From: Geoalkalibacter ferrihydriticus DSM 17813
GTDB taxonomy: Bacteria; Desulfobacterota; Desulfuromonadia; Desulfuromonadales; Geoalkalibacteraceae
Length of the DNA stretch: 64,000 bases
NCBI RefSeq assembly: GCF_000820505.1
Contig: NZ_JWJD01000002.1
Span: 147,153 to 211,152 of the forward strand
Reading direction: 5' to 3'
A model generated the notes under the pieces. That model was given only the letters and a program-made list of their open reading frames with translations. It was not told the DNA's origin and made no database searches. The position numbers were made by a program, and so were the translations under genes. Below are positions 36,501 to 44,597 of this stretch, one piece after another; within the stretch, counting starts at the first letter, position 1; every line of letters begins with the position of its first letter.

Positions 36501-37014
36501 GTGCATGTTGGCAGGGCCTGGACAATAATTTTCGATGTGATCGATTATTACGCGTTGCCGTTGATGAGGCGTCGCCGGCGGGATGCAGAAGCGCAAGCGC
36601 ATGCTCCAGGGCTTGAGACAGAGCCCTTTGCGTCTTGGGGCTGAGACCTTCGGCGAAAGGGGTCGCGTGGGACGGCAGAGTGAGTAGCCAGGCCCGCGGG
36701 GTGCGACCATAGAGACGCGCGCACAACATCAACAGAACCTCGGGAGAAAGCTGATGACCGCAACGCCCCTCCCCCCCCTCAGACCGGAGGCGATGCAGAA
36801 GGAAAGGGCGCTGCTGGCCGGCCGCGGCATCGATGAACAGGACACGGTCGACAGAGGCGCAGGCGATCTCCAGGCAGAGCTCCGGCGTTAATTGATGAAC
36901 CGAGAGCACGCGCACTGCGGCGGCGGGCAGGCGTTGGGCGAGTAACTCAGCCAGACGCCTACCCGCGCCATCGTCTGCACGCAGCAGATTGCCGTAACCG
37001 ATGACCAGCCACAT
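36460..37014 (-). CDS. hoxW: Hydrogenase maturation protease, HoxW/HyaD type
   Basis: This endopeptidase trims the C-terminal tail of the large subunit after Ni insertion. The 184-residue product starts with the family's VIGYGNLLRADDGAG (Ni-sensing Asp/Glu region), then FIDAA and a His in the GHQLSPE segment. Its ATG overlaps the hoxH stop (TGATG). Family members are about 150-165 residues; the last 30 or so residues here are encoded opposite a transposase fragment and look foreign. The original C-terminus has probably been replaced by read-through into the insertion. Confidence 0.87.
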   Translation of the reverse strand: MWLVIGYGNLLRADDGAGRRLAELLAQRLPAAAVRVLSVHQLTPELCLEIACASVDRVLFIDAAAGQQRPFLLHRLRSEGGEGRCGHQLSPEVLLMLCARLYGRTPRAWLLTLPSHATPFAEGLSPKTQRALSQALEHALALLHPAGDASSTATRNNRSHRKLLSRPCQHAQTSEEIPACDTDG

Positions 37015-38444
37015 CAGGCGCGCCGCACCTCGTCGAGCAGGCGCCCGTCGACGTCGCGCAGTTCCACTTGCAGAGGCATACGCCCCGCTTCATGGGTCGA
37101 GCAACTCAGGCAGGGGTCGTAGGCGCGGATGCCGTGTTCAACGCGGTTGAGCAACCCCTCATCGAGTCGGTCCGCTGAGAGAAAGCGCTGGGCGATTTGC
37201 TTGATGGTGCGATTCATGGCCAGGTTGTTCTGTCCGGTAGCGATGATCAGGTTAACTTTTTCAAGCAGGCCGTTGTCGTCAACCTGGTAATGGTGGAACA
37301 GGGTGCCGCGCGGCGCTTCACAGACCCCAACGCCGACATTCTGGTTGACTCCGGCGCGACTGCGGATATGGCGTTCGGCAAGAATGTCATTGTCCAGGAT
37401 TTCCTCGATGCGCTCAAGAGAATGGAGGATTTCGATGAGCCGCGCGTAGTGATAGAAAAAACTGCTGCTGACGGGCCTGCCCGGCCCGCAATAATGGCGA
37501 AATTGGCGCAATTCGCGGTCGGCCTTGCGGGTTCCGGCGAAGTCGCAGACATTGAGTCGCGCCAAAGGGCCAACCCGGTACATACCTTTCTCCGGACCCA
37601 AGGGAGCGTAATAAGGAAATTTCAAATAGCTCCAGGTTTCTTCACCTTCGGTGATCAATTGCGCAAAGTTTTCCGGTGCGACCTGATCCTCAATGATTTT
37701 TCCGTCGGCATCGACGATGCGCAGGCGCCCATCGTAATGCTCCAAGCTTCCGTCCTCGCCGACCAGGCCCATGAACAGACTGGGGAAGTCTCCGTAGGCA
37801 TCGATTTCGCCCTTGACGCGATCAAGGGCGTCCTTGAACAGATCGAGCGCAATATCGACCACGGCAAACATTTCGGGCAGTTGCGCCCGAATCTCATGTT
37901 TGGCTTGCGGCTCAAGGCCGGCCCGCACTCCGCCCGGAACAGACCAGGAGGGATGCACACTGCGCTCGCCGAGGGTGCGGATCAGATGCTGACCGAAGGC
38001 GCGCAATCGGATACCGGCACGGGCGACTTCAGGATGAGCGGCTATCAGTCCGGTCAGATTGCGCTGCTCCGGGTTGCTGTCCATGCCGAGGAGCAGGTCG
38101 GGACCGGAAAGCAGAAAGAAACTCAGGGCATGGCTTTGTACCAATTGGGCGTAGTTCATCAGGCGGCGCAGGGCTATCGCCGGAGCTGGGGTGCGAACAC
38201 CGAGAATGGCGTCGCCGGCCTTGCTTGAAGCCAGCAGGTGACTGACAGGGCAGATGCCGCACACCCTTGCGGTGATGCCGGGCATCTCCCAGAAGCTGCG
38301 GCCGATACAGAATTTTTCGAACCCGCGAAATTCGGTGACGTGGAAGCGCGCGTCGGCCACCCGGCCCTGATCATCGAGTTGGATGCTGATTTTAGCGTGC
38401 CCCTCGATGCGGGTGATCGGTTCGATGTGAATCGTGCGTGACAT
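37014..38444 (-). CDS. hoxH: NAD-linked [NiFe] hydrogenase large subunit HoxH
   Basis: This subunit holds the Ni-Fe site that splits or makes H2 in the cytoplasm. The 476-residue product has both ligand pairs: RVCGIC (Cys 62 and 65) and DPCLSC (Cys 445 and 448) followed by STH at 451. The 25 residues after His 451 are the expected cleavable tail, matching the protease gene next door. It opens with the EPITRIEGH motif near the N-terminus. AGGAG precedes the ATG. Confidence 0.95.
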
Positions 38445-38465
38445 AAAATAAACTCCTATACCTCG

Positions 38466-39011
38466 TTAACCGAAGGTGCGCAGCGATGGGGGGAGTTCGA
38501 CGGCGCGGCCTTCAATAAGGGCGGTGAGTGTGGCGCTGATGCGCTCCGGAACGGGCGGACAACCGGGAAGAAAGACATCGACCTGGATCGCCCGATGCAG
38601 GGGAAGAACTTTTGTCAACAAGGCCGGCAACACCTCGAGAGCTTCCGGCCCGATGGGGGCGCGGGCCTCGTGGTAAACGGCGGTCAACAGATCCTTGACG
38701 GAAATGCGGTTGCGCATACTGGTGACATTACCGGTGACCGCGCAATCGCCGAAGCTCACCACGGTCTTGGTATGGGTGCGAATGCGGCGGGCCAGTTCGA
38801 GATTTTCAACATTGGTTATGGCTCCCTCGACCAAACACAGATCAACATTCTCGGGATAAATTTTGGCATCGACCAGGGGGCCGTAGACCAGATCGACGCG
38901 CTCACTCAGCGCCATAAGCTCTTCGTCGAGGTCGAGAAAACTCATATGACAACCGGAGCAGCCTCCCAACCAGACCGTGGCGAGGCGCAACTTTTGTGGT
39001 TTTGCGTTCAT
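38466..39011 (-). CDS. hoxY: NAD-linked [NiFe] hydrogenase small subunit HoxY
   Basis: The 181-residue small subunit carries the proximal [4Fe-4S] cluster: [10 protein letters not shown] near the N-terminus, the Cys of [10 protein letters not shown], and LPGCPP near residue 160. The short length, with no C-terminal extra-cluster domain and no Tat signal, is typical of group 3d cytoplasmic enzymes. The start at 39011 follows GGATGGAG; two upstream in-frame ATGs are less well placed. It lies between hoxU and hoxH. Confidence 0.94.
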
Positions 39012-39031
39012 GCTCTCCATCCTTTGCTGGT

Positions 39032-39748
39032 TTAGCGATGCCATTGGCGCTTCTCGCGGCCGTCGAGAATGCGGCGCAGAAAACGTGAATCTTTCTTCAT
39101 TTCGCCCACCGAGGACCCTTGGTCGAAAAGAGCGCCGGTCGGACAGACCTCAACGCATTTTCCGCACTCGGTGCATGTCTCGCTTTCACCCCAAGGCCGA
39201 TTAAGGTCCGTGATGACCTGACTGGCGATCCCGCGGCCGCGCACGTCCCAGGTATGAGCGCCTTCGACTTCGTCACACACCCTGACGCAGCGCAGGCACA
39301 AAATGCAGCGGTTGTGATCGGCACCGTACTTTTCGTGGCTGGTGTCCATGGCCAGGTCGGGATCCAGATAGTCATAGCGCACATGGTCCATACCCAGTTC
39401 CGCGGCCAGCGCCTGCAATTCGCAGTGTTCGTTGCTGACGCACACGGCGCAGGCATGATTGCGCTCGGCGAAGGTCAGTTCCAGAATCATCTTGCGGTAG
39501 CGGTTGATCTTGTCGTTGTGAGTGACCACCACCATGCCTTCCACCGCTTCGGTAGTGCAGGCCGGCAGCAAACGGGGCGCTCCGGCAACCTCGACCAGGC
39601 AAAGGCGGCAGCCGCCCCGGGTGCTCAAGCCGTCGAGGTAACACAGCGTCGGCAATTCGACGCCCTGATCCCGGATTGCTTCGAGCAGGCTTTGGCCGGC
39701 GCGGGCGCTCACCAGCCGACCATTGAGGGTCAATGTGATGACAGACAT
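39032..39748 (-). CDS. hoxU: Hydrogenase diaphorase subunit HoxU
   Basis: The 238-residue iron-sulfur subunit carries electrons between the diaphorase and hydrogenase parts. It has an N-terminal [2Fe-2S] ferredoxin fold (Cys in [16 protein letters not shown]), the His-Cys cluster region (NHACAVC), and two [4Fe-4S] sets, [11 protein letters not shown] and [11 protein letters not shown]. It resembles the N-terminal part of NuoG. Its ATG overlaps the hoxF stop (TGATG). Confidence 0.95.
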
Positions 39749-41457
39749 CAGATCTGCTCCTTAAGGATAGTCAACTGATCGATGTGTTCCGGCAACTTGT
39801 ACAGGGGGATCTGATCGAGCTTGCAAATTCCAGCCGGGCAGCGTTTTTCTTCCACGTGGGCAAGATACTCGTCGCGGAAGTAAAGCAGCGTGTTGAGGAC
39901 CGGATTCGGCGCAGTCATGCCCAGGCCGCAAAGACTGGTTTCTTGAACCAGTCCGCAGAGTTCCTCGAGCGTCTGCAGATCCTCTGCGACGGCACTGCCG
40001 TCGGTGATGCGGGTAAGCAGCCGATGCATTTCGACGGTGCCGACGCGGCACGGCACGCACTTGCCGCAACTCTCATCCAGGCAGAATTCCATGAAAAATT
40101 TGGCGACGTCGGGCATGCAGCTGGTTTCGTTCATGACGATCAGTCCGCCCGATCCCATAATGGATCCTAGCTCCTTGAGACTCTCGTAATCGACGGGGGT
40201 GTCAAGATGCGTGGAGGGGATGCAGCCGCCGCTCGGTCCGCCAGTCTGCGCGGCCTTAAAGTTGCCGCCGTCGGGCAGACCGCCGCCGATGTCGAAGACG
40301 ATGTTGCGCAGGCTGATGCCCATCTCGACCTCAATGAGCCCTGAGTTGACGACCTCGCCGCACAGGGCGAAGACTTTGGTGCCTTTGCTTCTTTCCGTGC
40401 CGAAGCCGGCGAACCAGTCGGCTCCGTTTCTGATGATAGGTGCGATGTTGGCGAAGGTTTCGACATTATTGATAAGGGTCGGCTGGCCCCAGAGGCCACT
40501 GTGGGCCGGATAGGGCGGCCGGGGAACCGGTTGCCCGCGGCGTCCCATGATGGAGGTCATCAAGGCGGTTTCCTCGCCGCACACAAAGGCGCCGGCACCG
40601 ACGCGCAGGTCGATGCGGAAGTTGAAGCCGCTGTCGAGAATACGGCTTCCGAGCAACCCACTTTTCTCGGCCGCCTTGATGGCCTTGGCCAGACGCGCCG
40701 CAGCCAGGGGATATTCGCCGCGGACATAGATGTAGCCCTGTTCGGCACCGACGGCATAGCCGGCGATGGCCAGACCTTCGAGAACCCGGTGCGGATCCGA
40801 TTCCATGATGGTACGATCCATATAGGCGCCGGGATCGCCTTCATCGCCGTTGGCGACCACGTATTTGCGCTCTCCCGGAGCCTTGCGCACCAGATCCCAT
40901 TTGACTCCGGTCGGATAACCGCCACCGCCGCGCCCGCGCAAGCCGCTGTGGGTGATTTCGCCGCAGACCTGTTCCGGAGTCATTTCCTGCAGCGCATGAG
41001 CCAGGGCACTATAGGCGCTGCGGGCCAGGCTGTGCTCGATTTTCTCCGGATCAATCCGGCCATTGTTGTCCAAAACGATGCGGGTTTGCTGGGTAAAGAA
41101 GGGCAGATGCGACGAGAGTTCCTCGGTCACCGGGGCGTTCTTTGAAAATTGCGCTGAGAGGATCGCGTGTGCCGACTCCGGCGTCACTTTTTCAAAAATC
41201 TGTTCGCTGCCGTCTGCCTGGGTGATTCGCAGCAGAGGACCACGACTGCAAGGGCCCATGCAGCCGGTCGCAACCACCTCAAGTGACACATCTGAATGAC
41301 TTTTTCGTGCGGCGATTTCCTCATCGAGAACGGCTTTGACCCGGTCGGCGCCGGCCGACAGACAAGGGGTACTGTAGCATAGAAACAAGCGCAGGCTCAT
41401 TTGCCCCTGGCGCTGCCGTTCCTGTTCAGCGCGTTCCTGTAATTCTGTCGGGTTCAT
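39748..41457 (-). CDS. hoxF: Hydrogenase diaphorase subunit HoxF (NuoF-like)
   Basis: The 569-residue flavoprotein oxidises or reduces NAD(H). An N-terminal thioredoxin-like [2Fe-2S] domain (about 20-110; Cys in LFLCYSTPC and CMGPC) precedes the FMN/NADH core ([28 protein letters not shown]) and the [4Fe-4S] Cys set [12 protein letters not shown]. The C-terminus ends with a few extra Cys (KRCPAGIC). The gene overlaps hoxE and hoxU, so the subunits are translationally coupled. Confidence 0.95.
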
Positions 41458-42002
41458 TATTCCTTCTCCTGGCAGGTATCAACCGCAGCGATTTTTTCCT
41501 GAATGGCCGCCGCGGTAGACTCAGGGGTTTGCTTGCCGAGAACCTCACCGTCGAGTGTCAGCATCGGCGCCAGGCTGCAATTGCCCAGGCAGCGCGCCGT
41601 CATCAGCGTCAACTTTTTGTCCGCGGTCGTTTCTCCGGCTTTGACCTCGAAGATCTCCTCGAGCTTGGTCACAATTTCTGCGGCCCCTTTGACGTAGCAG
41701 GCGGTACCCATACAGATCACGCACACATGATCGCCCTGGGGCTCCAGGGTGAAGAAGTTGTAGAAGGTGGCAACTCCGTAAACCCAACTGGGCGGCAGTT
41801 TAAGATGGATAGAGACATAATCGAGTATGGCCTCGTCGAGGTGCCCAAAGGTTTCCTGCGCAGTATGCAGGATTTCAATGAGGGCATCCTGCTGGTATTG
41901 ATACCTTTTGAGGGATTTGTCGAGGAGTTGTAATTTCAGTTTTTGAGAATTGTCGGGATTTTGTTCCGAAGGGGGCCGTGTAGCCATTGTGGGTTGTGCC
42001 AT
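41457..42002 (-). CDS. hoxE: Hydrogenase diaphorase subunit HoxE (NuoE-like)
   Basis: The 181-residue thioredoxin-like [2Fe-2S] protein is the NuoE counterpart of the bidirectional hydrogenase. The cluster ligands are in [11 protein letters not shown] and, about 40 residues later, ARCLGNC. It has the helical N-terminal bundle with [17 protein letters not shown] lies just before the ATG at 42002. It is the first gene of hoxEFUYHW; presence of HoxE marks the five-subunit form. Confidence 0.94.
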
Positions 42003-42104
42003 GAAACCTCCTGATCCATTCAATATTTTGGTCTGAGGGGAAGTTACGGCAGGCCGGGTCGACCTTGCTATTCACCCCAAACTATAGCAGATTAATTGAC
42101 GAAG

Positions 42105-42119: not shown

Positions 42120-42317
42120 GACAGGGATGAAATCGGCAAAAATTCGCCTTACCCTGAAATGTTGCGGCTTTTGCCACACACGTGGAGCACATCCTTGGTT
42201 TTGAGAACAAACGCTTTGCTTCCGACAGCAAGGCTTTTGCTCCGACCCCCAGCTCTTTTATAGAAGGATAAAAAGGTCAACCTGGGAAATGAATTTTATT
42301 CAGTGCGGAGATTTTGT

Positions 42318-42533
42318 ATGAAAGTTCGCGATAGCGGCATGCCGGATGAGGAAATGTGGAACTCCTTTTTCTCACCGGCAAAGATTCTCGCTCTTCTCGG
42401 CCTGGACGCCGACACCCGCGGGGTAGCCAAGTTTGGCTGCGGGTATGGCACCTTTAGCCTGGCGGCGGCCCGGCTGACGCAGGGGATGGTGCATGCCTTC
42501 GATATTGAGCCTGCAATGGTTGCGGTGCAGGCG
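42318..42533 (+). pseudogene. N-terminal remnant of a class I SAM methyltransferase
   Basis: From the ATG at 42318 (GGAG upstream) about 72 residues match the start of a methyltransferase: a short helical lead (MPDEEMWNSFF), then motif I FGCGYGTFSLAAAR and the acidic loop AFDIEPAMVA. After that the frame continues but becomes low-complexity Ser/Arg-rich sequence with no later motifs, and it runs opposite the selenoprotein gene. The family is normally about 200 residues, so this gene has lost roughly two thirds. Confidence 0.7.
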
Positions 42534-42655
42534 GTCCCACACAGAAAAGACGGTGGAGTAGTTGGAATTGGTCTCATTCGGCACCTGCGAGTGGTGAACG
42601 CCGTGCATCCGGGGGGTGACGATTCTCTGCCCCCGTGGCCGGTTTCATCAGGGCG

Positions 42656-42892
42656 CTACGAGGCTGCGCTTTGGCGGCAGATTTCCAGAAGGTCGTCGAG
42701 TTCGGGGAAACGGCGTTGCTCCAGGCGCGAAAAAACCCGTTCTTTGTCGAGAAACACGGCGAATTCGCTTTTCTGCTCTCCGGCCACGGTTTCGATCTCG
42801 ACGTCCTGCACCTTTTGCTTCAATTCAGCAGCGAGACTCGTTGCGCGGGGCTGATGCCCTCAGGAAGCACAGTATACAATCGTCATCAGCAT
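42656..42892 (-). CDS. SelW/Rdx-family selenoprotein with in-frame TGA (Sec at residue 11)
   Basis: Reading through a TGA at 42862-42860 gives 78 residues that match the SelW/Rdx family end to end: beta strand TIVYC, the redox motif C8-A-S-U11, the PRATSLAAEL helix, FAVFLDKERVFSR strands and RFPELDDLLE. The family motif is CxxC or CxxU, and the TGA falls exactly at the U position. GGAG precedes the ATG at 42892 (a second ATG is at 42886). Stop is TAG. These thioredoxin-fold proteins are small thiol redox proteins. A conventional gene finder would miss it. I could not fold a convincing SECIS by eye. Confidence 0.85.
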
Positions 42893-43069
42893 CTCAACTC
42901 TCCTTTGCTTTGGGGTTTTTGTTTAGTAATTTTGGGAGAATAATTTTGGGGCTTGACAGGCGGAATGCAGAATGTTCCTTCTGGTTCTGCAATAATTTTG
43001 AATAAGCCGGTGGTGTGCGAGTATCTCGTCGCCGCCGGTTATCTCAACCGGTTCGGCAGGAGGAAATCA

Positions 43070-43177
43070 ATGAAGGACACGTGCCACCTATATACGGATC
43101 TGGCGTGGCTGTGGCCGATATGGGGAGATCCCGCCACTGAATACGCGTACTACTGCGAACATGTCACGACACTCTGG
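43070..43177 (+). pseudogene. Second truncated methyltransferase 5' end
   Basis: AGGAGG and ATG at 43070 open a frame whose first 36 residues look like the lead of another class I methyltransferase group (LYTDLAWLWPIWGDPATEYA, then YYCEHVTTLW). Similarity ends before motif I, and the frame then runs into the promoter of the toxin-antitoxin pair. It differs from the remnant at 42318. Insertion of the toxin-antitoxin module may have cut it. Confidence 0.6.
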
Positions 43178-43188
43178 GTAGCCCGGGC

Positions 43189-43219
43189 TTGCTTTCACCT
43201 GCAAAACATTTTAAAATGT
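43189..43219 (+). promoter_or_regulatory. Promoter with overlapping palindromic operator of the toxin-antitoxin pair
   Basis: TTGCTT (43189-43194), 17 bases, TAAAAT (43212-43217). The perfect palindrome ACATTTTAAAATGT (43206-43219) covers the -10 box, as expected for an autorepressed antitoxin operon. TGCAAATGCAA just after it is a further short repeat. Confidence 0.65.
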
Positions 43220-43248
43220 ATTGCAAATGCAACGCAAGGAGTTAGCGC

Positions 43249-43521
43249 ATGAAAACAGCCACATTGCCATCCCTTCGGGTTGATCCAGAGTTGCGCCATG
43301 AGGTCGAAAGTGTTTTGCACAATGGTGAAACCTTATCGAGTTTCATGGAAAAATCTCTACGTGCCAGCATCGAGCACCGAAAAATGCAGCAAGAGTTTAT
43401 CGCCAGAGGCTTGACCTTACGCGATGAAGCACGAAAAACCGGAGAGTATTTCGCGGCCGAGAATGTCTTGGATGAAATGAGCGACATGCTTGCCCAGGCC
43501 GAAGCTAAAGCCCGCAAGTGA
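43249..43521 (+). CDS. Antitoxin of a type II toxin-antitoxin pair
   Basis: The 90-residue protein begins with a short strand-helix region (LPSLRVDPELRHEVESVL) that looks like a ribbon-helix-helix DNA-binding domain, with a long charged C-terminal helix likely to wrap the toxin. It resembles small antitoxins of the YlcI/ParD kind. AAGGAG precedes the ATG, the palindrome over its promoter fits autorepression, and its TGA overlaps the GTG start of the toxin. Confidence 0.78.
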   Translation: MKTATLPSLRVDPELRHEVESVLHNGETLSSFMEKSLRASIEHRKMQQEFIARGLTLRDEARKTGEYFAAENVLDEMSDMLAQAEAKARK

Positions 43522-43817
43522 ATTATAAAGTACGCTATACCAAGGCTGCCAAGAAAGATTTTTTGCGTCTCTATGATTTTCTCTTGGGAAAGGACCTTCA
43601 GGCCGCACGCAGAGCCCTTGAGGCCATCCGGAAGGGAATGGATTTTCTGCAGGATTTTCCTTTCACCTGTCGCAAAGCGACCCCTGAGAACCCCTTTTTG
43701 CGGGAAATGATAATCTCTTTTGGTGCCGGTGGGTATGTCGTTCTCTTTGAAATAGAGGATGAAAAAACCGTGACCATCCTTGCCGTCCGCCATCAACGCG
43801 AAGAAGATTACCACTAA
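43518..43817 (+). CDS. ParE/RelE-superfamily toxin
   Basis: The 99-residue basic protein has the ParE/RelE fold pattern: VRYTKAAKKDFLRLYDFL, a central helix pair, FPFTCRKA, the LREMIISFGAGGYVVLFEI strand pair and the end VRHQREEDY. It starts at a GTG overlapping the antitoxin stop (GTGA). ParE members poison gyrase while RelE members cut mRNA; the sequence does not settle which. The C-terminal RHQREED is typical of ParE. Confidence 0.85.
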   Translation: MNYKVRYTKAAKKDFLRLYDFLLGKDLQAARRALEAIRKGMDFLQDFPFTCRKATPENPFLREMIISFGAGGYVVLFEIEDEKTVTILAVRHQREEDYH

Positions 43818-44212: not shown

Positions 44213-44557
44213 TTACTTGCGTCCGACCTCCGACGCTCGCCCCGCACGCTCCGCGGCGATGATGGAGTCGAGAACTCCCGGGAACAGTGCATCAAGATCT
44301 TCTCTTCGCAGGCTGTTGACCCACTCCTTGCCTTCACGCCTTGTGGCCAGTACCCCGGAACGCCTCAGGACCTTGAAATGGTGGGATAAAGAAGATTTCG
44401 GCATAGCCAATCCGAAGCACCCGCATGCGATTTCGCCGGCGCCGGCGAGTTTAAGCACTATCTCCAGTCGCACCGGGTCACTTAGCGCGTGCAGCACTTT
44501 ATGCAGAGTAATCCCGTCGCGCGACGGTTGCTCCTGTTCGATATTTCTCGCTGCCAT
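44213..44557 (-). CDS. ArsR/SmtB-family transcriptional repressor
   Basis: The 114-residue winged-helix protein shows LHALSDPVRLEIVLKL, then CGCFGLAMPKSSLSHHFKVLRRSGVL (Cys 45 and 47 at the recognition-helix lead) and the wing TRREGKEWVNSL. GGAGG sets the start at 44557. The Cys pair could bind metal or respond to oxidants, though this subgroup often senses other signals. It is divergent from the flavodoxin-like gene, and the 154-base gap holds a set of half-sites it is likely to bind. Confidence 0.87.
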   Translation of the reverse strand: MAARNIEQEQPSRDGITLHKVLHALSDPVRLEIVLKLAGAGEIACGCFGLAMPKSSLSHHFKVLRRSGVLATRREGKEWVNSLRREDLDALFPGVLDSIIAAERAGRASEVGRK

Positions 44558-44597
44558 GCTGTTCCTCCATTCCACAGGCCATCTTACAAAAATATGA

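Follow-up and report, generated by a model that had tools for sequence, protein, structure and literature searches.

A SelW-type selenoprotein gene, apparently the last one left of a redox cluster that many relatives keep

We analyzed a locus within a stretch of 64,000 nucleotides of the Geoalkalibacter ferrihydriticus genome, referred to below as the window. On the minus strand, the frame 42892-42656, read with TGA as selenocysteine (Sec), encodes 78 residues and ends at the stop codon TAG (42658-42656). It contains a single in-frame TGA, at codon 11 (window positions 42862-42860, minus strand), and this codon is the U of the motif C8-A-S-U11. The gene and the features around it are listed below; MT2 is the second of two methyltransferases encoded near SelW in relatives, whose genomes (G) and contigs or loci (L) are given by our own handles where they have to be told apart.

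42656..42892, minus strand: SelW/Rdx-type selenoprotein gene, 78 aa, Sec at residue 11 (CASU), from the frame, Pfam Rdx, TIGR02174 and the predicted fold
42860..42862, minus strand: TGA codon as selenocysteine, from the frame reading and TGA at the same codon in relatives
42900..42906, minus strand: Shine-Dalgarno-like AAAGGAG, 7 nt upstream of the ATG, read directly
43020..43047, minus strand: weak sigma-70-like promoter match (9/12), a pattern match only, with one found versus 0.4 expected in 42500-43260
42828..42844, minus strand: bSECIS-like hairpin GCA-A-CGA, loop GUC, UCG-C-UGC, from folding and covariation
42518..42623, minus strand: fragment of a fatty acid hydroxylase gene near the 3' end of SelW, 93% DNA identity over 106 bp
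42318..42527, plus strand (opposite to SelW): N-terminal fragment of MT2, about 70 of 194 aa, from homology to the MT2 behind SelW in some relatives
42138..42243, no strand assigned: 106-bp repeat, the terminal part of an IS200/Y1-type transposase gene, with three matches elsewhere in the genome

The 78-residue product scored 63.2 bits with the Pfam family Rdx (PF10262; cut-off 22.6, E 2.6e-17) and 55.0 bits with TIGR02174, CXXU_selWTH (cut-off 34.2), whereas with the narrower model NF041051 (Campylobacter type) it remained below the cut-off, at 60.4 of 88 bits. In a six-frame PF10262 search of the genome (23 contigs, 3.84 Mb), this was the only Rdx place (E 2.8e-14, one TGA inside). The original prediction had described a complete SelW/Rdx protein, with TGA as the U of the CxxU redox motif and a ribosome site upstream; its coordinates and reading are right, because the frame, the position of the TGA, the ribosome site, both family matches and the single genomic Rdx place all agree with them. 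On this sequence evidence, the window gene is confirmed as a genuine selenoprotein gene of a known kind.

The predicted structure, modeled with Cys for Sec (mean pLDDT 92), has the secondary structure E2-8, H14-27, E32-38, E44-48, E51-55 and H65-77, and places CxxU between strand 1 and helix 1 of a thioredoxin-like fold. The top structure match was the SelW-related 2p0g (E 1.3e-5, TM 0.82), and the TM score against 3dex was up to 0.86; thus, the predicted fold agrees with SelW, in line with the helix and later strands that had been read from the sequence. The genome also holds all four components of the Sec machinery that had been proposed as a check (selA, selB, selC and selD). The tRNA-Sec scored 75 bits, versus a gathering score of 47, and has the anticodon TCA (ARAGORN); SelA (615.7 bits), SelB (392.8 bits) and SelD (370.7 bits) each exceeded their cut-offs, and the genes selA, selB and selD follow one another on contig 1. 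SelD carries its own in-frame TGA, at SAGUAAK, which makes it very probable that UGA is decoded as Sec at other places in this genome as well.

Close orthologues with an ordinary sense codon, together with evidence of a decayed copy, had been named as a point against the prediction. In all 19 relatives recovered by a pattern-based contig scan with the protein alone, the corresponding codon is likewise TGA. When 194 genomes sampled from the class were searched with a profile, 76 of them yielded Rdx, at 87 places in total: 84 with one TGA, one with two and two with none. As indexed by script, 102 of 105 rows have TGA at the same codon, duplicates counted (contigs met twice, by name and by handle, are among the 105). 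The remaining three rows are L088, which was mis-indexed and has one TGA in the profile search, L139, which has a shifted motif, and L124, which has no internal stop; L137, a partial match in an 824-residue frame without a stop, yielded no row. L124 (G158:C210) is a rare Cys form, with CSKC replacing CxxU, and its genome also encodes two TGA-containing Rdx forms.

A tree of these proteins places the window SelW within a clade of 27 rows with the support of 100/98, although the tree is built from 89 short rows and many of its forks are unresolved. The three rows indexed as non-TGA, the divergent or shifted L130, L135, L136 and L138, and identical proteins were dropped beforehand. The clade is marked by KSEFAVFVD and FSRLEQRRFPE (12-row alignment), and the rows nearest to the window SelW are L121, L099 and L105, about 68-72% identical.

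For analysis of the hairpin, 88 distinct sequences were read in frame from TGA, with T as position 0; the three non-TGA-indexed rows, L136, L138 and duplicates were left out. Positions 18-24 pair with positions 34-28 around a three-base loop, the first base of which is G in 88 of 88 sequences. Standard pairs make up 93.7% of the pair cells, compared to 79.7% (sd 0.9%) when the 3' letters are shuffled among sequences, a shuffle that does not preserve the relatedness of sequences, and to no more than 56.7% when the partner is displaced by 1-3 bases. Two pairs, 20-32 (C-G, A-T, T-A and G-C) and 23-29 (C-G, G-C and A-T), covary, and because they join third codon positions, this covariation, as read from the alignment, is unexplained by protein coding. 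We relied on covariation because the test of fold energy against synonymous recodings is weak in relatives, too (fractions from 0.013 to 0.817 over 27 sequences); 60% of the recodings fold as low as the window SECIS (fraction 0.600). A search of Rfam at the gathering threshold gave no match within the window.

In the window copy, the apical loop (42837-42835) starts with G, 22 nt past TGA, and the hairpin retains the loop GUC and six of the seven pairs. The seventh, 21-31, is lost to an A(42841).C(42831) mismatch: codon 18 reads ACG (Thr), and its counterpart in clade relatives is an Ala codon with G as the first base. This pair is intact in 24 of 25 distinct clade sequences, the window being the exception, while outside the clade, 9 of 65 SelW sequences are mismatched at this stem position, with Thr or Ser for Ala. 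The predicted energy of -4.6 kcal/mol is the weakest in the clade (others, -7.8 to -16.3); the wider SelW set reaches -2.0 kcal/mol, and the window hairpin is not the weakest there. A SECIS element downstream of TGA was thus recovered as a bSECIS-like hairpin with one stem mismatch.

In the three nearest relatives (L121, L099 and L105), SelW follows a thioredoxin reductase (TrxR) gene and precedes the gene of a SAM methyltransferase, MT1. In L099 and L105, MT2 lies behind MT1, and an ArsR-type regulator lies in front; in L148, the full contig of L121, the MT2 gene is farther upstream, and L022 and others have a DsrE-like gene added to the cluster. The order ArsR - (DsrE) - TrxR - SelW (Sec) - MT1 - (MT2) was observed in L022:3291-5885, L105:138-3015, L099, L025, L031 and others. 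The TrxR proteins of L022 and L105, the two that were scanned, exceed the TIGR01292 cut-off, and that of L022 has a CATC site. Counted on the SelW strand and no farther than 2 kb away, the genes occur at the 26 clade loci (the window excluded, doubly-met contigs avoided) as follows: TrxR in 12 cases, ArsR in 12, MT1 in 11, DsrE in six and MT2 in four, where 12 of 26 counts loci rather than independent events, near-identical or same-genome members being included (L022 and L031; L025 and L031). For each of these five genes, the count is zero at the 69 other SelW loci, which mostly have about 1.5 kb of flank (some less, at contig ends), enough for TrxR and MT1 and not always for ArsR and MT2. Nine of the 26 clade loci (seven of the group L119-L134, L024 and L115) have none of the five genes, and L026 has just a weak ArsR match, farther off; therefore, on gene order, the linkage characterizes only part of the clade. 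At the 12 loci with TrxR, the gene has a large internal deletion in L027 (L027:4728-4965), is split by a frame break in L121 (L121:1233-2181) and is cut by the contig end in L030; another TrxR, L028:1405-2335, has moved and lies in pieces. Because the cluster TrxR is broken in several relatives, its loss seems to be recurrent.

None of the ten proteins scanned around the window SelW is an intact part of this cluster. No TrxR gene lies directly upstream of SelW, and the genome encodes no orthologue-level TrxR: the best matches are 52% and 42% identical, similar to those of the SelW-less members of the family, whereas full-length cluster TrxR copies are 72-83% identical to the L105 protein. The best two matches to MT1 elsewhere in the genome (31% and 35%) were rejected as other methyltransferases, none being long or close enough for an orthologue. 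MT2 persists as the fragment listed above, which is 61% identical to the L105 MT2 over 69 aa (42318-42524) and 64% identical to those of L029/L023 over 70 aa (plus-frame residues 6-75); it is the sole orthologue-level MT2 match in its own genome, the next best being 33%. At 42518, it abuts the hydroxylase piece, whose PF04116 match (E 0.002) is below the cut-off; the hydroxylase gene to part of which this piece is 93% identical is intact in G005, a relative from the same family (L146:2494-3351, E 1.8e-28), and adjoins an intact MT2 there. The 106-bp repeat lies past MT2, away from SelW. Its five fetched copies are 77-80% identical, with three further places in the genome and three in G001, and its transposase identity comes from one scanned copy.

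Farther out, 37014-42023 (minus strand) is a hydrogenase gene cluster, in which the large subunit (PF00374) and a 2Fe-2S thioredoxin-like subunit were confirmed. The rest of it we take to belong, probably, to an NAD-linked bidirectional hydrogenase, with nickel-site motifs that read as Cys, not Sec. On the other side, at 43249-43817, a ParE-type toxin gene (E 1.7e-17) is preceded by a small partner, and a stretch over both is 91% identical in G004. The open frame at 42953-43252 (ATG at 43071) matches no Pfam family and is perhaps another gene fragment.

The plus-strand frame 42303-42854 is open over 183 aa and resembles methyltransferases only over residues 6-75 (42318-42527). For residues 88-183, or parts of them, the other tblastn matches fall at the SelW gene of relatives, on the strand opposite to it. 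By these comparisons, the frame consists of a truncated MT2 followed by hydroxylase and then SelW sequence in antisense, which bears out the earlier description of a dying methyltransferase tail. It should be noted that selenoprotein genes are easily missed or mis-stranded in standard gene calling, and here a dead frame runs antisense through the true gene.

Judging from gene content, SelW is separated from the cluster in the window species and seems to be the last remaining member of a redox cluster that many relatives have retained. In its family, SelW was found in one of six genomes, the window's own, while selA is present in five of six; SelW is absent from the five others (one 81% complete, the rest 92% or more), four of which retain selA. 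The same-genus genome G001 carries, directly behind an ArsR gene that shares 58% identity with the cluster regulator, a remnant of MT2 (L147:4021-4451), in which the first 15 residues match, the last ones match by eye, the middle is seemingly missing and there is no Pfam match; within the 8 kb fetched around this ArsR gene, no match to SelW, TrxR or MT1 was found. Horizontal gain of SelW by the species was considered and is not needed: the intact MT2 and hydroxylase of G005 and the ArsR gene and MT2 remnant of G001 suggest that loss of the cluster fits better than transfer. An ArsR-like protein in the window (44213-44575) was rejected as the cluster regulator, being merely 29% identical over 70 aa.

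We consider it likely that the window carries a working selW-type selenoprotein gene that has been orphaned. A working gene is favored because the dN/dS ratio resembles that of relatives: it is 0.12-0.26 for the window SelW versus five relatives and 0.11-0.27 among those relatives, all rough values, since most dS exceed 1 and are near saturation. This comparison of sequences shows purifying selection on SelW. The end branch of the window SelW (0.27) is similar to those of its neighbors (0.25, 0.24 and 0.19). Within the first 70 residues, the lone departure from columns that are invariant in 17 clade rows is residue 18 (Thr for Ala), and this is the change that breaks the SECIS stem.

The main alternative, which we regard as rather unlikely and yet deserving of weight, is a recently dying copy: the frame would be intact, but with a weakened SECIS and the operon lost, UGA would mostly terminate translation and leave a 10-residue peptide, the gene being in the course of loss, as in the sister species. 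Such decay would be in line with the A.C mismatch, unique to the window among the 25 clade sequences, with the loss of TrxR and MT1 and the truncated, inverted MT2, with the failure of all five family relatives to keep SelW, though four of them keep selA, and with the MT2 remnant behind ArsR in the same-genus G001. Conversely, the 9 of 65 SelW sequences outside the clade with the same mismatch indicate that it has been tolerated repeatedly; the branch length and dN/dS are ordinary, and the start, the ribosome site and the full frame are intact. Hence, the earlier concern that this locus might be a decayed copy is answered in part: the frame and dN/dS speak against it, while the gene fragments around SelW and the stem mismatch leave the worry not fully removed. 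Function appears favored over a dying copy, with certainty limited because long-term selection would not reveal a recent death.

Two further readings fare much worse. Sec decoding is never certain from sequence, and UGA could be a plain stop, behind which translation restarts or the sequence goes unused, in a settled condition and not a recent decay; this is highly improbable in view of the UGA shared at this codon by all 19 named relatives and nearly all rows as indexed, of the covarying hairpin with its invariant G, and of the Sec machinery. That the true gene is the plus-strand frame, encoding a short methyltransferase, with the minus frame a product of chance, is refuted, in spite of its 183 open codons and a weak methyltransferase match (residues 41-75, E 0.0004, below the Pfam cut-off), by the end of homology to intact MT2 after about 70 of 194 residues, with the remainder antisense to the hydroxylase fragment and SelW, by the Rdx match of the minus frame and by the concentration of changes at minus-frame third codon positions (e.g., 18, 7 and 38 for the three positions, versus L121).

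If the orphaned gene works, SelB and Sec-tRNA would bind the hairpin, Sec would be inserted at UGA 11, and the product would serve as a redox carrier of thioredoxin fold, with a selenenylsulfide formed between C8 and U11. In the cluster-bearing relatives, electrons might pass from NADPH via TrxR and SelW to a thiol or metalloid substrate, a flow that we infer because, in many relatives, the clade SelW lies directly behind TrxR, often with an ArsR-type regulator in control and SAM methyltransferases downstream; the purpose is perhaps metalloid or selenium/sulfur handling, because ArsR, DsrE and methyltransferases are in the cluster. In the window species, SelW would need reduction by a general thioredoxin reductase, because the dedicated TrxR and MT1 are gone. 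As a tentative proposal, for which we claim somewhat less than even confidence, the SelW clade may be a dedicated Sec redox partner of its own TrxR, in an ArsR-controlled module with SAM methyltransferases (at times DsrE) that forms an undescribed pathway for metalloid or selenium/sulfur species; the window would then represent a late stage of loss, with the selenoprotein outliving its partners and its SECIS starting to weaken. The cluster names candidate partners of SelW (its own TrxR and two methyltransferases), so that function becomes testable with purified proteins, and the window provides a natural case of a selenoprotein separated from its cluster.

Compared to known systems, the window SelW shares with the bacterial SelW-like selenoproteins (PF10262, TIGR02174) the CxxU motif, a length of about 78 residues, the thioredoxin-like fold and a SECIS after UGA. 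Most other SelW proteins have GGVFEVxVDGxxxYSKK, whereas the window clade has KSEFAVFVD...FSRLEQRRFPE instead. The SelW-related crystal structures 2p0g, 2fa8, 2ojl and 3dex have the same fold (TM to the query 0.83-0.86, best bacterial chains), as does mouse SelW, 2npb (TM 0.79), all at no more than about 20-33% identity. A 2006 paper lists SelW-like selenoproteins for Geobacter sulfurreducens and Desulfotalea psychrophila (PMC1794560); another account ranks SelW-like proteins first in abundance among the selenoprotein families of the Sargasso Sea set and calls the function of bacterial SelW unclear (PMC1088965). Because SelW-like selenoproteins of Geobacter and marine bacteria had already been published, the window gene is less novel than the original prediction implied.

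The cluster was compared to other arrangements of selenoprotein genes. Ten Prx/SelW sequences are reported from marine metagenomes (PMC2398784), and in these pairs, SelW likewise adjoins another redox gene; unlike in the Prx/SelW pairs, the neighbors in clade relatives are TrxR, an ArsR regulator and methyltransferases, with no peroxiredoxin among the genes scanned. Tso and SAO are selenoprotein operons described by Haft and colleagues, some members of which are implicated in metal or metalloid handling, according to a review (PMC13188914). The NCBIfam TsoR is an ArsR/SmtB-type regulator, which the ArsR of the SelW cluster matches weakly (E 4.8e-7, 29.7 of 115 bits); among eight cluster proteins of L022 and L105 and two window neighbors, none exceeded the cut-off of a Tso or Sao model. 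Our literature search, of partial coverage, found no account of a TrxR-SelW-methyltransferase cluster, and the cluster may already be in print. On the present comparison, it is this cluster that we put forward as the novel case, while the window gene itself is of the known SelW type.
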